Part shown: one piece after another, positions 48,836-62,458 of the stretch
Position numbering within the stretch: position 1 is the first letter of the stretch
Layout: every line of letters starts with the position of its first letter
DNA from: Flavobacterium sp. ov086
GTDB lineage: Bacteria; Bacteroidota; Bacteroidia; Flavobacteriales; Flavobacteriaceae
DNA length: 64,000 nucleotides
NCBI RefSeq assembly: GCF_900187965.1
Contig: NZ_FZNL01000006.1
Coordinates: forward strand, 124,001 to 188,000
Direction of reading: 5' to 3'
Made by a program: the position numbers and the translations under genes
The notes under the pieces: model-generated
Databases searched by the model: none
Seen by the model: only the letters and a program-made list of their open reading frames with translations
What the model was told of the DNA's origin: nothing

Positions 48836-48980
48836 TCGCTCCTCAAATTGTTCATCGCAAACGCTGTGGAGTCTCCCGACTTCGTACACCCTGCTATAAT
48901 CCATTCCAATTTATCCAAGTTTTTATATTGCTTTATTTGCTTATTGGAACGGGTACGAAGTCGGGAGGCTTCGCAGAGCT
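48836..48980. repeat. Palindromic ~150-bp element, copy A
   Basis: CTCCCGACTTCGTAC (48873-48887) is the reverse complement of GTACGAAGTCGGGAG (48953-48967), with ATTCCAAT/ATTGGAAC pairing just inside. The flanks TTCATCGCAAACGCTG and GCTTATTGGAACGGGTACG recur in copy B at 54019-54170 in the same orientation. There is no ORF. The paired arms would form a large cruciform or RNA hairpin. Confidence 0.75.
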
Positions 48981-49575: not shown

Positions 49576-49584
49576 TAAACAAAA

Positions 49585-49611
49585 AACCTCGACCATTTCA
49601 AGATCGAGGTT
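49585..49611. terminator. Bidirectional terminator, cassette copy 1
   Basis: AACCTCGA (49585-49592) pairs with TCGAGGTT (49604-49611), with A-rich and T-rich flanks on both sides, between convergent stops at 49575 and 49643. The same hairpin occurs at 54213-54239. Confidence 0.85.
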
Positions 49612-49642
49612 TTTCATTTATTTCAAATTCCAAAGAAAAAAT

Positions 49643-49876
49643 CTATTCCTTATCCAAATAAGGATTCAAAATTTCGGCTAATTCATTCAACCAATAAAAG
49701 CTGTTTTCTATATTGTCTATTCCGTTTTTAAGGGTTTCATTTTTCCTCATAACTTCTAAAGCGAGCAAATAATTTATTTGTCTTATTGCTTTAGCCATAT
49801 CATTTGGATCGATTGTATGGTTGAAAAAATTCATAAGCCTTTTTTCGGCTTCTTTCGAAAGGGTGTTTGTATTCAT
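49643..49876 (-). CDS. Small acidic helical protein, duplicated cassette gene copy 1
   Basis: A 77-residue protein starting at MNTNTLSKEAEKRLMNFFNH. The copy at 54271-54504 differs at only six positions (S7L, K12T, I34V, G52E, I56L, K76M). It is helical and rich in Asn and Glu (NYLLALEVMRKNETLKN; WLNELAEILNPYLD). A longer frame with an ATG at 49906 exists, but the second copy starts at the aligned ATG given here, which decides the start. The 147-nt leader and -7 box upstream and the terminator downstream are also conserved in the second copy. No family recognised. Confidence 0.8.
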   Translation of the reverse strand: MNTNTLSKEAEKRLMNFFNHTIDPNDMAKAIRQINYLLALEVMRKNETLKNGIDNIENSFYWLNELAEILNPYLDKE

Positions 49877-50023
49877 AACTTCCATTTGAGTGAATATAAA
49901 ACCCATGTTGGTAAGTTGTATACGCTATTAAAAGCATCCGTATTGTTTCTAATACAGCAACTACACCACAAGGGCAAATTTTATTTCGTCTTTAAATGTG
50001 AAGATTTAAGAATTGCAAATATA
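49877..50023 (-). promoter_or_regulatory. Conserved 147-nt leader and TATATTTG promoter of the cassette, copy 1
   Basis: On the minus strand TATATTTG (50016-50023) is a perfect -7 box; the distance to the ATG is 147 nt in both copies, yet the middle of the leader has diverged. In both copies a small hairpin sits at the same place (here GTATT/AATAC around TTTGTTTCT-type loop, near 49931-49945), and AGGGCAAA is kept. A long conserved leader hints at RNA-level control. Confidence 0.55.
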
Positions 50024-50094
50024 AAGAAAAATCTTATAAATAATTAACTGTTTTCAAAATCAATAAAAAATAAAATTTTCTTATGAAAACGAAT

Positions 50095-50175
50095 GTCCTA
50101 GCCCTGATGGGAGGGAAAATCCTTTTTTATTGTTTTTCACAATAAAAAAGATTGGAAGGACAGCAGGAAATAGCT
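50095..50175. ncRNA. Structured intergenic element resembling Flavobacteriia conserved RNA (possibly Flavo-1 type)
   Basis: GTCCTAGCCCTGATGGGAGG opens the element; GTCCT pairs with AGGAC (50157-50161), and within it ATCCTTTTTTATTG pairs with CAATAAAAAAGAT, closing with CAGCAGGAAATAGC. The wording GTCCTAGCCC..GAT..GGAAG..AGCAGGAAATAGC is one I have seen repeatedly in flavobacterial intergenic regions and may be the Flavo-1 RNA. I cannot check Rfam, so naming and direction of transcription are uncertain. Confidence 0.45.
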
Positions 50176-50271
50176 TCAAATTAAAATTTAAGTCCCAGAT
50201 TATCATTTTTTAATCGAACTATAATTTTATCATAATTCGTATTTTCGTTAGCGTCTGCTTCACAAACCAGA

Positions 50272-50397
50272 TTGAGTTTTAGTGAAATTCTCATTTTAAT
50301 TCCTATTTTCGCTCAACTTAAATTGTTTCCCGATAATGCCAAACCTAAAGAACTATTTATTGAAGATAAGAGATACCAAATTATTGAAAACAAGTAA
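50272..50397 (+). pseudogene. Remnant of a secreted-protein gene (41-codon frame)
   Basis: From a TTG the frame reads SFSEILILIPIFAQLKLF after the start residue, then PDNAKPKELFIEDKRYQIIE and NK before a stop. ILILIPIFAQ looks like the end of an export signal, and the tail looks like the C-terminus of a small Flavobacterium protein. It overlaps the repeated promoter-like segment at 50304-50311. It is probably a decayed gene; translation today is doubtful. Confidence 0.3.
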
Positions 50398-50421
50398 AAC
50401 TAAGTATTACAATTAAAATTT

Positions 50422-51027
50422 ATGGCTGAAAAAGTTGAGGATTGGGAAAAAAAGCAAAAAGATTATTTAGCAGTAGCCATAATTTGTCTCATAATTGGTA
50501 CATACTTCTTTATGAAAGTAATAAATGGCAGCTATATAATAAAACCATCAGACCTTAGTGTTTATGATAATTTAATAACTTCTGAAGTACCAAAATTCAA
50601 AGAAACTAAAGGTAAACATGGCAGAAGATGGATAGAGTTCAAATGTGTAGACAACAGATCTACTTTCGAGATTGCAAATTTTGATTATAAATGCATTAAC
50701 GACAATGAAATACTAAATGAAATAAAAGCCGGAGATACAATTTCAATTGCTATTTTAAAAGGTGATGTAGAAGGCTTTGATAATGATACATCTTGTGAAA
50801 TTCATTCACTTATAAAAAATGATAAAGAGTATCTAGACCTTCAATGTAGAAACAAAGCAGATAATAAAGATGGAAAAATGGGATTTCTGATCCTATTTGC
50901 AATATCTATTATGACCGCAATAGTATATTCATTCTCTGGAAAACCAAAATTATTTAACAAAGTTAATCCAGAAATTATAATTGGTATTATAGTATTAATA
51001 CTTTTTATTATTCTACGAATTAATTAA
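50422..51027 (+). CDS. Hypothetical membrane protein, 201 residues
   Basis: Three hydrophobic segments: about residues 15-32 (YLAVAIICLIIGTYFFMKV), 152-170 and 180-198, with a soluble, probably extracytoplasmic central domain between the first and second (about 35-145) containing three Cys (FKCVDN, DYKCIND, TSCEIHS, LQCRN). The layout resembles DUF3592-type membrane proteins with a beta-sandwich ectodomain, but the match is weak. It lies in an array of unrelated orphan genes. Function unknown. Confidence 0.6.
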   Translation: MAEKVEDWEKKQKDYLAVAIICLIIGTYFFMKVINGSYIIKPSDLSVYDNLITSEVPKFKETKGKHGRRWIEFKCVDNRSTFEIANFDYKCINDNEILNEIKAGDTISIAILKGDVEGFDNDTSCEIHSLIKNDKEYLDLQCRNKADNKDGKMGFLILFAISIMTAIVYSFSGKPKLFNKVNPEIIIGIIVLILFIILRIN

Positions 51028-51112
51028 ATAAAGATAAATACTACCTGACAAAATCACTAAAAACATAATACTTTTATAACCATTTAAAAACCGAAAACCT
51101 ACACCATAAACT

Positions 51113-51886
51113 ATGGATATAATCCTAACACTTTTTGGAATAATAATGTTCTTCATCACATTAGTGCCTTTTTTGGCAATTGCTTTTTTAATTTTTTATG
51201 TGATAAAAAGATCTACAAAAAAGAAATCTCCTGAATTTTTACGAAATGAAAAAGTAGAAATGGAGCGAAAAGTAAATGAATTAAAAAATGATATTGAAAA
51301 CTGGAAAAATTATACTCCACAAGACATCACTAATTATATGACATATTCATTTAGAAAATCAATGTCAAATACATTAACGGGGAAAATTTATTCAAGAGAT
51401 AATTCGCCTATAATTGCATTCCAGAGAATAGACAGAGGACTTTATGCCAATGCCAGAATAGTTGCAAGTACTACTGATTTTAAAATTTATATTGAATATT
51501 ATAACAATGAAAAACTATTCTTTTTTGATGATGTCTATTTAGGTAAAATAATAAATAATTCGGTTATAGTAAATCCGTTACACATACAAATTGGAACTTG
51601 CAATCGAGATAATTCCTATAACCAAACTAATTATACAATAGAACTACATTCAAAAAAAGTAGCAGAAATAAACAAAAATTCAGACCGAAAAACCATTGTA
51701 AAAAGCCAATATTATAAACCCAGTAGATCTGGCAGCAATTTTAAAACTACACTGGATTCTAGAGAAGTCGGACCGTCTTTTGCTTTAGTAAATTCGATAG
51801 ATACCGGAGATAGCGAAGAATTAAAATGGATAATTTCGATTGCGATTTTTGAATCCATTTACTATGGATTTGATTTTACTTCATAA
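51113..51886 (+). CDS. Hypothetical membrane-anchored protein, 257 residues
   Basis: One strong N-terminal membrane helix (about residues 4-33: ILTLFGIIMFFITLVPFLAI), then a short basic coiled segment (KKKSPEFLRNEKVEMERKVNELKNDIENW) and a mostly beta cytoplasmic domain with TLTGKIYSRDNSPIIAFQRIDRGLYANARIVASTTDF. No catalytic motif and no known family. Same strand and spacing as the neighbours, but AT-rich gaps between them give no clear operon. Confidence 0.6.
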   Translation: MDIILTLFGIIMFFITLVPFLAIAFLIFYVIKRSTKKKSPEFLRNEKVEMERKVNELKNDIENWKNYTPQDITNYMTYSFRKSMSNTLTGKIYSRDNSPIIAFQRIDRGLYANARIVASTTDFKIYIEYYNNEKLFFFDDVYLGKIINNSVIVNPLHIQIGTCNRDNSYNQTNYTIELHSKKVAEINKNSDRKTIVKSQYYKPSRSGSNFKTTLDSREVGPSFALVNSIDTGDSEELKWIISIAIFESIYYGFDFTS

Positions 51887-51945
51887 GTTGCACAACAAGA
51901 ATATAAAAACTAGAATTTAGAAAAGAAGCTTACTATACAATTATC

Positions 51946-53034
51946 ATGAAAACAAAAACGCTGTTATTACTCCTTATACTATTCCCTATTTTTTCTTTCA
52001 AATCATATGCTCAGAAGCAAGGTAAAATAACTGCTGATCTGTCTAATATTAAAAATTCTTTTGATCATGTGATCATAAAGATGGAAGGCTTTGCAGAATT
52101 TGGCGATACAATAACTACCATAGATACTATACAAGCAAAAGGTGGCAAGTTTGAATATCGTTTTTCCGTACCTGAAACAAGAATGACAAGTTTTGAACTT
52201 TTAAAAAATAATGAAATAGTAACTGATATTGGGATTAAAGACGCTATGACTTCTAAAGAATGTGGCTTTTTTAGTGAAATCTGTGTTGGAAACGAAGATA
52301 TCAAAATCAGTTATATTAATTCTGAAAAGGCACCTTTTGTGAAAGCCTATTGCGAAGGTTTAAAAGAAAATAAATGGTATTATTGGTTTGACCCAACTGG
52401 AATTGATTACGATAGGGTTACTAAGGAATTTGTCAAAAAACACCCCAATCGTTATGCTGTTCTACAAGCTATTTATTTTCAAAAAGAATTATTCTCAACT
52501 ACTGAGATATCAGATATGCTAAATTTATTTTCTGATGAATTAAAACAATCCGCTACTTATGGAGTGCTTAAAAAATATCTGAATAAAATGATAGCGCTCG
52601 AGAAAACCGAATATGCGAAGAGCTTCAAATGGCAAGATATTAACGGAGTTTCATATGATTTCAAGACTGTTTTAGCGGGTAAAAAATATGTATTATTAGT
52701 CTTTTGGTCAAGTACATGCGAAACATGTCGATATCAGATTAAAGCTTTAAAAAAGTTTCAGGAACAATATATCGATCAAGTGAGCGTAGTAAATTTAAGT
52801 ATAGACAGTGATTTTCAAAAATGGAAAGAAGCGGTTGAAGAAGAAAAAATGACCTGGTATAATTTGTCCGGACTTCCAAATAATAAAGAAGCCATAAAAG
52901 AAGTATATTCCATAAGTGAAGTGCCTCAATTTATATTGCTTGACAGTGAAAGTAAATCGGCAATCAAGAACATCACTTATGAATTATTTGAAATTGAAAA
53001 TTTTATTAAATTATCAAAGCGAATTGCGAAATAA
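51946..53034 (+). CDS. TlpA-like thioredoxin-fold protein with N-terminal DUF4369-like domain
   Basis: A 362-residue secreted protein (signal MKTKTLLLLLILFPIFSFKS ending ..YAQ). Residues about 25-200 form a beta-sandwich like DUF4369 (VIIKMEGFAEFGDTITTIDTIQAKGGKFEYRF), followed by a thioredoxin domain with the redox motif Cys-Glu-Thr-Cys in LLVFWSSTCETCRYQIKALKKF. Similar proteins act as periplasmic thiol-disulfide oxidoreductases in Bacteroidota. It is the only clearly recognisable enzyme in the orphan array. Confidence 0.88.
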   Translation: MKTKTLLLLLILFPIFSFKSYAQKQGKITADLSNIKNSFDHVIIKMEGFAEFGDTITTIDTIQAKGGKFEYRFSVPETRMTSFELLKNNEIVTDIGIKDAMTSKECGFFSEICVGNEDIKISYINSEKAPFVKAYCEGLKENKWYYWFDPTGIDYDRVTKEFVKKHPNRYAVLQAIYFQKELFSTTEISDMLNLFSDELKQSATYGVLKKYLNKMIALEKTEYAKSFKWQDINGVSYDFKTVLAGKKYVLLVFWSSTCETCRYQIKALKKFQEQYIDQVSVVNLSIDSDFQKWKEAVEEEKMTWYNLSGLPNNKEAIKEVYSISEVPQFILLDSESKSAIKNITYELFEIENFIKLSKRIAK

Positions 53035-53129
53035 CTCCGTTCTACAAAGTCTTATTGTGAACGAAAATATAGTTGGTATATTAGTTATACATTAGTTTAG
53101 CCAAACTAAACATACCAAAGAAACAATAT

Positions 53130-53705
53130 ATGAAACTCTCCTTTTTAATTTTGCTTTTAGTATTTTTTAGTTGTGAAACTAAAACGAAAAGAGACGCTTC
53201 TAAAACAACTAAAACTGAAAATGCTGTAAAAACAAAAACTATAATCGAAAAAAGAAAATTCTTTGTTGGGGACGTAAATAATGACAAAATAAATGATACC
53301 GCTTTTATATCCCTAAACCGAAATAGTGAAACTAACGAAATTGAATGCAAGGAAAAAAACTGTTTAATAAATGTAACGTTTTCTAAAAATATTCCTGAAA
53401 TAAGTTTTGACCAAAGTTTGGGTATTGTAGTAATGAAAACAGATGATTTTAACAATGATAAAGCAAATGAAATAATCATTTTTTCGCGAACAAATGAAGG
53501 TTGGTGGAATGACATTTTTGTTTGGACATTTAAAAACGGAAATTGGAAAGAAATTGCTAGAGCAAAAGGATTTATCTCTGAAAACAAGGATTTTGAAAAT
53601 AGAATTATAAAAGAAAAAAAACATTTTTATTTAATTGGCGAAAATCAATGGAAAGAAGATAAAAATGGGGAATTTGAAAAAACAAAAGTGAGAATATTTG
53701 AATAA
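53130..53705 (+). CDS. Hypothetical lipoprotein, 191 residues (XAC2610/FG-GAP-like)
   Basis: Lipoprotein signal MKLSFLILLLVFFSC (Cys15). After a Lys/Thr-rich linker the repeats FVGDVNNDKINDTAFISL and MKTDDFNNDKANEIIIFSR resemble FG-GAP or XAC2610-type calcium-binding repeats, and a beta-rich end follows. Possibly a surface-attached binding protein. No partner is obvious. Confidence 0.6.
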   Translation: MKLSFLILLLVFFSCETKTKRDASKTTKTENAVKTKTIIEKRKFFVGDVNNDKINDTAFISLNRNSETNEIECKEKNCLINVTFSKNIPEISFDQSLGIVVMKTDDFNNDKANEIIIFSRTNEGWWNDIFVWTFKNGNWKEIARAKGFISENKDFENRIIKEKKHFYLIGENQWKEDKNGEFEKTKVRIFE

Positions 53706-53719
53706 ATTAAAGTTGCTAA

Positions 53720-54001
53720 ATGGATAAACGATTAAACTTGTTTTGGCACGAATTACTAACTCAATGTGAAAAACACGATAAATATGAGTTCTTATTCAAA
53801 ATAGAATATTGGGGAATTCTATGGATGCCGTGGTTTATTTATATAGCCGATGAATCATTGAAATTTAGTACAAATGAAATTTCAGATGATGACTTAAAAA
53901 TCTTGATTAAAAATGGATATATTGAATTCATTGAAGAAATCGTACCAACTGACACTATGGATCTTGAAATTAGAAAATACAGAATAAAAAACCACAACTA
54001 A
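53720..54001 (+). CDS. Hypothetical small protein, 93 residues
   Basis: Small acidic and aromatic protein (FWHELLTQCEKHDKYEFLFK; WGILWMPWFIYIADESLKF), no signal peptide or membrane anchor. It follows the lipoprotein gene by 14 bp. Its size and composition fit an immunity-like or adaptor protein but no family is recognised. Confidence 0.6.
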   Translation: MDKRLNLFWHELLTQCEKHDKYEFLFKIEYWGILWMPWFIYIADESLKFSTNEISDDDLKILIKNGYIEFIEEIVPTDTMDLEIRKYRIKNHN

Positions 54002-54018
54002 TATCTATAATCAAAACC

Positions 54019-54170
54019 CGCTCTACGAAGTGTTCATAGCAAACGCTGCGAAGTCTCCTGACTTCGCACACATTCCTATTAGCCATCCCTATTTATTCAA
54101 ACATTTCTTAATATCATTAAATTTGCTTATTGGAACGGGTACGAAGTCGGGAGACTTCGAACAACATCCA
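54019..54170. repeat. Palindromic ~150-bp element, copy B
   Basis: CGAAGTCTCCTGACTTCG (54049-54066) and CGAAGTCGGGAGACTTCG (54142-54159) are each palindromes and also pair with each other. The flanks GTTCATAGCAAACGCTG and GCTTATTGGAACGGGTACG match copy A. The copies lie 5.18 kb apart in the same orientation. Confidence 0.75.
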
Positions 54171-54212
54171 TAAATAGAACATCAATCGAATAGAGAAAAG
54201 AATTAAACAAAA

Positions 54213-54239
54213 AACCTCGACTTCTAAAAAATCGAGGTT
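54213..54239. terminator. Bidirectional terminator, cassette copy 2
   Basis: AACCTCGA (54213-54220) pairs with TCGAGGTT (54232-54239) between A- and T-rich flanks; same hairpin as 49585-49611, followed on the plus side by the same ATTCCAAAGAAAAAA block. Confidence 0.85.
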
Positions 54240-54270
54240 CTTTGTTTATTTCTAATTCCAAAGAAAAAAA

Positions 54271-54504
54271 CTACTCCATATCCAAATAAGGATTTAAAAT
54301 CTCGGCTAATTCATTCAACCAATAAAAGCTGTTTTCTAAGTTGTCTATTTCGTTTTTAAGGGTTTCATTTTTCCTCATAACTTCTAAAGCGAGCAAATAG
54401 TTTACTTGTCTTATTGCTTTAGCCATATCATTTGGATCGATTGTATGGTTAAAAAAATTCATAAGCCTTGTTTCGGCTTCTTTCAAAAGGGTGTTTGTAT
54501 TCAT
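54271..54504 (-). CDS. Small acidic helical protein, duplicated cassette gene copy 2
   Basis: 77 residues, six differences from the copy at 49643-49876. It keeps the same start, length, stop and downstream terminator. Two near-identical orphans 4.6 kb apart in direct orientation show a recent duplication of an entire transcription unit. Function unknown; helical and acidic, no export signal. Confidence 0.8.
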   Translation of the reverse strand: MNTNTLLKEAETRLMNFFNHTIDPNDMAKAIRQVNYLLALEVMRKNETLKNEIDNLENSFYWLNELAEILNPYLDME

Positions 54505-54651
54505 AATATCGTAGTTTAAGAATACACAACCCTTGTATGTTAGTGATTCTAACGCCTACGACAGCACTGACGGTCTTTTCCGATACCGCACACATAATAA
54601 AGGGCAAAGTCTATTAGTTCTTAAGGTCGTAGTTTAAGAACCGCAAATATA
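54505..54651 (-). promoter_or_regulatory. Conserved 147-nt leader and TATATTTG promoter of the cassette, copy 2
   Basis: TATATTTG (complement of 54644-54651) stands exactly 147 nt from the ATG, as in copy 1. In the leader, TGTTAGTGATTCTAACG forms a hairpin and CGGT..ACCG near 54570-54588 replaces the GTATT..AATAC hairpin of copy 1. TCGTAGTTTAAGAA occurs twice, at about 54509 and 54627, bracketing the leader. Confidence 0.55.
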
Positions 54652-61952: not shown

Positions 61953-62458
61953 TATCAATTAAAAATTCCAATCCCGAAGCTTCGGGATAAATTTCAAAAT
62001 GTCTTGGTTTCATGAGCCTTCGACTTCGCTCAGGGTGACGATGAGAAATTCCAAAAATTAAATTTCAAATTCCAAAGACACAAAATCGCTAAGTTTATAC
62101 ACAATATTGTCATCCGACGTGAGGAGAAATCACACTAGAAACTCCGCAAAGAAACTCACTAATTTTGTCGATCTGCGAGTATGATTTCTCCTTCCGTCGA
62201 AATTATAAAGCTTGCGTTTTTATTACTGTCCTTAAAAAAGCTCTATAAAAAGAATATTGCGAAGTCGCAAAGTAAAATTTAAAGAAACAAACTTTGTGAC
62301 TTTGCGAGATTAAATCTACACAAACCAATTTTAAAAAAAACTTTGTGTTTTAGCGACATCGTGGCATATTTTCAAAAATACTTGTCAAAAAATTTGTGAA
62401 ACCAAATAGTTGCATGTATATTTGCAACCGATTGGCTTCGTAATTAAAACTAAACATT
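61953..62458. other. 506-bp repeat-rich gap before ArsR operon
   Basis: The gap holds a CCCGAAGCTTCGGG palindrome (61973-61986), a TTCTCC/TTCGGTCGAAAT-like repeat (62120-62215) related to 58370-58412, and an inverted pair CGAAGTCGCAAAGT / ACTTTGTGACTTTGCG (about 62262-62306). No ORF longer than a few codons has support. Confidence 0.6.
62393..62428 (+). promoter_or_regulatory. ArsR promoter (TTTG-N20-TATATTTG) with overlapping GTTGCA palindrome
   Basis: TTTG (62393-62396), 20 nt, then TATATTTG (62417-62424). The palindrome GTTGCA (62409-62414) / TGCAAC (62423-62428) overlaps the -7 box, so a dimeric ArsR protein bound there would repress its own operon. Confidence 0.7.

Follow-up and report, generated by a model that had tools for sequence, protein, structure and literature searches.

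The 64,000-nt stretch of DNA analysed here, referred to below as the window, comprises positions 124001-188000 of a 260-kb contig (NZ_FZNL01000006.1) in the 6.2-Mb genome of Flavobacterium sp. ov086. On its minus strand it carries two copies of a small unit, each made up of a promoter, a leader, a gene for a 77-residue protein (family A) and a terminator, which lie in direct orientation with an offset of 4,628 bp. This duplication had been predicted from the DNA alone, together with six substitutions between the two proteins. Both claims were borne out; the proteins are 92% identical, and the duplication is far beyond chance.

Copy 2 begins with the promoter box TATATTTG (54644-54651), read from the sequence, which we take to be a Bacteroidetes-type -7 box. 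It is followed by a predicted 5' hairpin (54616-54642) with the segment a1 (CTACGAC, 54626-54632) in its loop, and then by an RNA core (54527-54605) which matches both the Rfam family c4-2 (RF02944) and our covariance model R1. The core contains a variable loop, a' (TGTCGTAG, 54556-54563), to which a1 is complementary. Between the core and the gene lies the pre-start target site (54509-54522), consisting of a2 (CTACGA, a repeat of a1) and the adjoining TTCTTAA; the predicted energy of the loop:a2 duplex is -14.5 kcal/mol. The open reading frame occupies 54271-54504, and a terminator scan placed an intrinsic terminator with the AACCTCGA stem at 54204-54248.

Copy 1 has the same box, also read from the sequence, at 50016-50023. 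Downstream of it are a 5' segment (TCTTCACATTT, 49994-50004), a C4-type cloverleaf of another leader class (49899-49975, from model R1 and the predicted fold) and a pre-start segment (AAATGGAAGTT, 49877-49887), with which the 5' segment is predicted to pair directly in the minimum-energy fold. The open reading frame is at 49643-49876; translation from an upstream in-frame ATG at 49906 would yield 87 residues. The terminator-like stem (again AACCTCGA, 49585-49614) was found in the sequence, its loop exceeding the limit of the terminator scan, which does not list it.

In a repeat search, gene and terminator together (49576-49875 and 54204-54503) gave a match of 300 nt at 92% identity, and the promoter-proximal ends of the two units were 79% identical. 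When the copies were compared in 20-nt bins at the fixed offset of 4,628, 15-20 positions per bin matched from 49581 through the gene. Identity dropped sharply at the start codon, to 5-13 matches per bin across 49881-50000, and reached 14 of 20 at the 5' end of the leader. Since matching resumes there at the same offset, there is no net length change between the copies. The leader RNAs matched by covariance model, 77 nt in copy 1 and 79 nt in copy 2, have their lower ends exactly 4,628 apart. The original prediction had the leader diverged in its centre while keeping its length and a hairpin at the same place; equal length and a structure at the same place were found, but the two leaders have not merely diverged, as they are of different classes.

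Relationship of the leader to C4 RNA

The C4 RNA of phage P1 is a classic phage antisense repressor, and on the evidence of the covariance models the leader of the Flavobacterium unit belongs to the same clan of antisense RNAs. The leader of copy 2 matched c4-2 with 35.5 bits (E 1.1e-5), short of the family's cut-off. Of the four further family A copies in the same genome, three score 58-73 bits and the fourth, L006, is without such a leader. In the genus, c4-2 was detected in 53 of 299 genomes, in 51 of them above the cut-off and with scores in relatives of up to 82 bits. When the lists of protein and RNA were compared by hand, 47 genomes had both, eight the protein only and six the RNA only. 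As a control, the same Rfam search recovered P1 C4 and its a1-b1 partner.

Model R1 was built from 26 elements with the c4-2 structure; copy 2 was in the training set and copy 1 outside it. Both were matched end to end, copy 1 with 42.1 bits (E 2e-7) and copy 2, as a member of the training set, with 53.6 bits. Free folding of copy 1 gave the cloverleaf (core z -3.38, whole leader z -3.76). In the fold of the whole copy 2 leader, which is not unusually stable (z -1.07) and lacks the cloverleaf, a2 pairs with the loop sequence and a1 is left in a hairpin loop. A peptide-coding attenuator was also considered for the leader. One leader reads as tryptophan-rich, but a related one has a single-base indel in that frame, which is therefore not coding, and the candidate was rejected.

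Complementarity at three sites

The leaders compared numbered 77. The 80 best named relatives were taken from 303 found, and 64 of these 80, with a model match adjoining the gene, entered the set together with 13 leaders from other genomes including that of the window. The leaders were split, roughly by model score, into 64 well-preserved leaders (61 distinct, three duplicates) and 13 weak ones. In 55 of the 77 (three duplicates included) the motif TAnnTTTG precedes the RNA core at a near-fixed position, against 4.6% expected from shuffles.

The central observation concerns a string of 6-8 nt, here called X, which occurs both in a1, near the 5' end of the transcript, and in a2, ahead of the start codon, and whose complement is in the loop between them. 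A matching string of at least 6 nt was present in 53 of the 61 distinct well-preserved leaders, compared with 15.3% when the loops were taken from other loci (56 of 64 and 16.3% before duplicates were removed). X ends a median of 3 nt before the ATG. The predicted energy of a loop with its own a1 was -16.9 kcal/mol, against -11.9 with non-cognate partners, and with its own a2 -14.9 against -8.3; for the 52 distinct loops, none of 10,000 permutations was as good in either case. Copy 2 has this C4-like arrangement, its loop being complementary to a2 at the gene start and to a1 upstream. The permutations do not take out relatedness completely, but compensated change at three separate places would be hard to account for in another way.

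In the second leader class, to which copy 1 belongs, the pairing of a1 with a2 was equalled in 209 of 10,000 permutations (n = 12, pre-start windows corrected; the earlier value was 20 of 10,000 with n = 13). The proposed wiring of this class, a 5' segment that would pair directly with the pre-start segment, is only suggestive. Pair counts in minimum-energy folds did not separate the two classes (35 of 64 against 9 of 13). One leader, L050, is a hybrid, with an a1 of the TCTTCAC type and a loop of the TGTCGTAG type.

Types of the RNA across genomes

We studied 150 c4-2 elements, namely those among the matches listed in the 299-genome search (more exist), and the counts in this section refer to them. 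Downstream are 121 family A genes, five A-like starts without an open frame, one gene of family B and 12 genes assigned by eye to family C (11, one of them cut short) or D (one); the remaining 11 elements are geneless. A string X of at least 6 nt was found in 115 of the 139 elements bearing a gene or remnant, a set which overlaps the 77 leaders. There are 56 distinct variable segments among the 126 family A leaders. A mobile element with target-site duplication, or a self-splicing element, was considered because X flanks the RNA, and was rejected because a small gene or gene remnant follows 139 of the 150 elements.

The RNAs before the other small-protein families (B, C or D by eye) are L027, L034-L038, L172, L203, L237, L286, L293, L296, L299, L300, L305, L306, L309 and L313, and some of them have much longer variable loops. 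Tandem RNAs less than 200 nt apart, with no gene between them, were seen in L104 (7731-7807 and 7899-7976), in L107 (7732-7807 and 7900-7978) and at G298:C3:598362 and 598549.

No X was shared in 169 pairs of elements within a genome, compared with 309 of 9,422 pairs between genomes. Mean cross energies were weaker within genomes, to an extent reached in none of 5,000 label permutations. The lack of sharing may reflect selection against cross-talk or, alternatively, old paralogues with conserved loops.

Among the 11 solitary RNAs, L280 had the best predicted a2 site in its own genome, at -13.5 kcal/mol (against -15.5 for the loop that belongs to this target); the best value was -12.3 for L251 and -7.3 to -11.2 for the other nine. 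With target energies as weak as these, the solitary RNAs are not convincing as trans regulators.

Apparent exchange of the leader

Of the last 76 residues of the protein, 70 are common to copies 1 and 2; the L040 protein, from the orthologue of copy 1 in F. pectinovorum 42, has 72 in common with either of them. The three genes are therefore about equally close, which refutes the idea that the two copies are mutually nearest. Their leaders have different relatives: that of copy 1 is 95% identical to the L040 leader, and that of copy 2 is nearest to L003 (88%), a locus of the same genome. Unlike leaders on similar genes are common. Among 279 gene pairs at least 80% identical (74 distinct elements), 146 have leader cores less than 70% identical, the figures before removal of duplicates being 156 of 313.

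Ten gene pairs, nine of them with unlike leaders, were aligned together with their upstream DNA. In five of the nine, each a pair from two species, an unlike leader stands between a conserved gene and at least about 150 bp of conserved upstream DNA (L043/L053, L100/L080, L105/L088, L079/L069 and, less clearly, L064/L066). Two others (L054/L055 and L065/L059) have a single conserved 50-column bin upstream, and L093/L112 has none; L067/L086 are two loci of one F. araucananum genome, with genes 96% and leaders 57% identical. Where both upstream DNA and gene are conserved around an unlike leader, the specificity part has apparently been replaced while gene and position were kept. By the same token the exchanged part, apparently also in the two copies of the window, is the leader.

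The 77-residue protein

The original prediction had proposed a genome search for further copies. This gave six in the genome of the window, and family A was present in 55 of the 299 sampled Flavobacterium genomes; in a class-wide sample it was found in three of 295 genomes, all three Flavobacterium. The family alignment comprises 88 proteins. The 77-residue protein matched no Pfam or NCBIfam family, and gave non-significant matches only in PHROGs. AlphaFold predicted an all-helical structure of moderate confidence (predicted local distance difference test 82, predicted template-modelling score 0.51). With this fold, Foldseek returned nothing at E 0.001 from the PDB or BFVD, and the best PDB hit in a sequence search had an E of 0.087. 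By profile comparison family A is unlike P1 Icd, and unlike one family B member and one family C member.

Twelve loci with a leader-less copy of the gene were listed. They might be read as empty sites, but in three of them, L006 (1818-2048), L060 and L062 (7612-7848), the gene stands beside a divergent helix-turn-helix regulator of the Cro/C1 type (from Pfam, in L006 and L060), as if a protein repressor had taken the place of the RNA.

Surroundings of the unit

In 31 of the 80 named loci the gene is near the same resistance-nodulation-division (RND) efflux genes as in the window, and the genes between the unit and the efflux genes differ among loci (full gene lists for 16 loci). Some neighbours are of defence type, among them an ATPase of the Septu type in L046 and a Gabija helicase in L076, and the control set has such genes too. 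With PADLOC, 150 neighbour proteins (of 209 cluster representatives) matched 336 models, single proteins matching dozens, and 150 control proteins (of 306, unclustered) matched 166; no defence enrichment is claimed.

A Flavo-1 RNA (RF01705; 50096-50174, plus strand; 64.6 bits, E 7.8e-12) lies just upstream of the copy 1 promoter, and Flavo-1-like DNA is near the unit in several other species too. An imperfect palindromic repeat is found downstream of both copies (48837-48976 and 54019-54160, about 79% alike); the genome contains five matches to it, including two short ones. Short repeats at 2363-2635 and 62095-62219 match places in many other Flavobacterium loci.

Proposed mechanism and alternative explanations

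In the most probable reading, the unit is a small gene standing on its own, with a C4-type antisense RNA against it encoded in its leader and with a specificity that can be exchanged. The transcript is assumed to begin shortly before a1. The core of about 80 nt that follows would, by family resemblance, fold as a C4-like cloverleaf with the hairpin loop a' exposed to both a1 and a2, its complements. Pairing of a' with a2 would block the access of ribosomes to the start codon and so repress translation, and a1, competing for the same loop, could serve as a decoy or brake. The core may be cut out, possibly by RNase P, and act in trans, by analogy with P1. The three sequences a', a1 and a2 vary in concert, and silencing of each copy is therefore expected to come mainly from RNA of the matching type. 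A change of type would come about when recombination replaces the leader and keeps the gene. The product itself may be a small helical protein whose expression comes at a cost to the cell, like that of P1 Icd.

The original prediction had suggested that the protein and its leader form the conserved functional unit. The membership of the leader in the C4 clan, and the 31 of 80 named loci in which the gene keeps its place near the efflux genes while the genes between them differ, support that suggestion and the hint of an immunity-type system. A bolder extension, which we put forward tentatively, is that the chromosomal repertoire of antisense-RNA types amounts to an RNA-coded system of self and non-self. 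Each small gene would answer only to an RNA of matching type, dozens of types would be in circulation, leaders would be swapped at a fixed locus, and an incoming gene of unfamiliar type would be expressed, like P7 in a P1 lysogen.

A number of observations weigh against the proposal of a self-encoded antisense RNA. The score of copy 2 is below the c4-2 gathering score of 41 bits, and copy 1 has no Rfam c4-2 match at E 0.01. The core of copy 2, folded alone, is no more stable than its shuffles (z -0.28), and the minimum-energy fold of that leader is not the cloverleaf. Sixteen of the 80 named copies have no model match adjoining the gene. The three-site match is absent from 8 of the 61 distinct well-preserved leaders and from 12 of the 13 weak ones, including copy 1; the leaders were assigned to these two groups after inspection, and the permutations leave some relatedness in the data. 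Predicted cross-talk within genomes (0.192) is not clearly lower than between them (0.226; 356 of 5,000 label permutations were as low), and orthologous loci with conserved loops could yield both the weaker energies and the lack of sharing within genomes. Finally, copy 2, which is outside the set of 150, and L003 share one loop and should cross-talk (predicted energy of the loop with the other's a2 -14.1 kcal/mol, with its own -14.5).

The leader could conceivably act purely in cis, as a switch in which loop, a1 and a2 pair alternatively within one transcript, possibly in response to the 77-residue protein or a ligand. This possibility, for which we would hold out about one chance in three or a little less, fits the position of the 139 elements directly upstream of a small gene or remnant, the fold of copy 2, which pairs a' with a2 in cis, and the fact that L280 alone of the 11 solitary elements approaches the cognate value with a target in its genome. 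It offers no obvious reason for a variable loop on a conserved scaffold, nor for the swapping of types, and the founding member of the C4 clan is described as trans-acting in PMC8546580.

A similarly doubtful explanation is that of a domesticated phage module, in which the protein would derive from a phage, as an antirepressor-like product or a division inhibitor, and be retained for immunity to related phages. A viral contig of 37 kb encodes a relative with 44% identity, immediately following a Bro-N/RhuM-like gene, and P1 C4 controls icd and ant. Against this, the homologue comes from one viral contig only and has no leader of the c4-2 type, the Bro-N score is below the cut-off, family A is unlike Icd, and no match to it was obtained in 50,697 phage records or in the plasmid collection.

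Neutral duplication, in the form of a recent gene-conversion tract over gene and terminator between old paralogues whose leaders were left behind, with no regulatory meaning, is improbable as the whole explanation. The sharp boundary at the start codon is what it would leave, L067/L086 are a second such pair, and the similarity of within-genome genes with unlike leaders is slightly above expectation (84 of 5,000 permutations). It accounts for the origin of two copies, not for matched loop and target sites, and gene conversion combines with the antisense explanation rather than being excluded by it.

Exchange of the genes between the copies, by direct repeats or in the manner of an integron, had been part of the original prediction, along with the statement that absence of copies elsewhere and constant gene content between them would speak against it; copies do occur elsewhere and the genes adjoining the unit differ strongly between species, but L040, with one copy in the 16 kb around it, keeps genes matching both halves of the interval (50.4-51.9 and 53.1-53.7 kb) without the thioredoxin-like gene at 51946-53031, a content which deletion between two repeats would not produce, and no site-specific recombinase was recognised with Pfam and NCBIfam among the eight proteins at 49.1-54.5 kb, including the five between the copies, so that we find this mode of exchange very improbable.

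Comparison with known systems

The closest relatives in Rfam are c4-2 (RF02944), which the leaders resemble in structure and sequence, and the C4 RNA of P1 and P7 (immI a1-b1, c4, a2-b2, icd, ant1; RF01695 and RF03163), through clan CL00128. The P1 record contains, in order, a1, b1, a 77-nt C4, a2, b2 and the 73-residue icd, and annotates C4 as repressing icd-ant translation at a2/b2. The likeness extends to a promoter, a first target pair, an RNA of about 77 nt and a second target pair before a gene of about 75 codons. The Flavobacterium units differ from P1 and P7 in being chromosomal and multi-copy, with many types instead of two; family A is not homologous to icd, and in our labelling the two target elements come in the reverse order. 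C4 of P1 controls icd together with an antirepressor. Here a terminator follows the gene of copy 2, and no antirepressor was recognised among the neighbour proteins scanned with Pfam and NCBIfam.

The P1 circuit is described in PMC8198154 and PMC8546580. According to PMC5320573, a difference of 4 nt restricts the cross-action of P1 and P7, with the loops setting specificity, and phage C4 is matured by RNase P.

The RNA of the leader is thus of a known kind, and what is new is its arrangement: its target is attached, the copies are multiple, the hypervariability is matched between loop and target, and the specificity is exchangeable. The literature searched, which excluded the original description of c4-2, yielded no account of its a1 and a2 sites, target genes or type swapping. 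With the target attached, dozens of natural matches of loop and target and repeated natural swaps, the specificity rules of C4 RNAs become directly testable. For Bacteroidetes, the same collection could serve as an existing toolkit of orthogonal RNA regulators. It also draws attention to a family of small proteins, so far uncharacterised, which bacteria may hold under tight, changeable control.

The nearest chromosomal parallel is provided by the Group 1 C4-like small RNAs of Acinetobacter baumannii, which are numerous, likewise chromosomal and vary mainly in the a' loop that specifies the target (PMC5320573). The available text of that paper names no confirmed targets for them, whereas the Flavobacterium RNAs that have a gene sit in the leader of that gene, and most of them carry its target twice.

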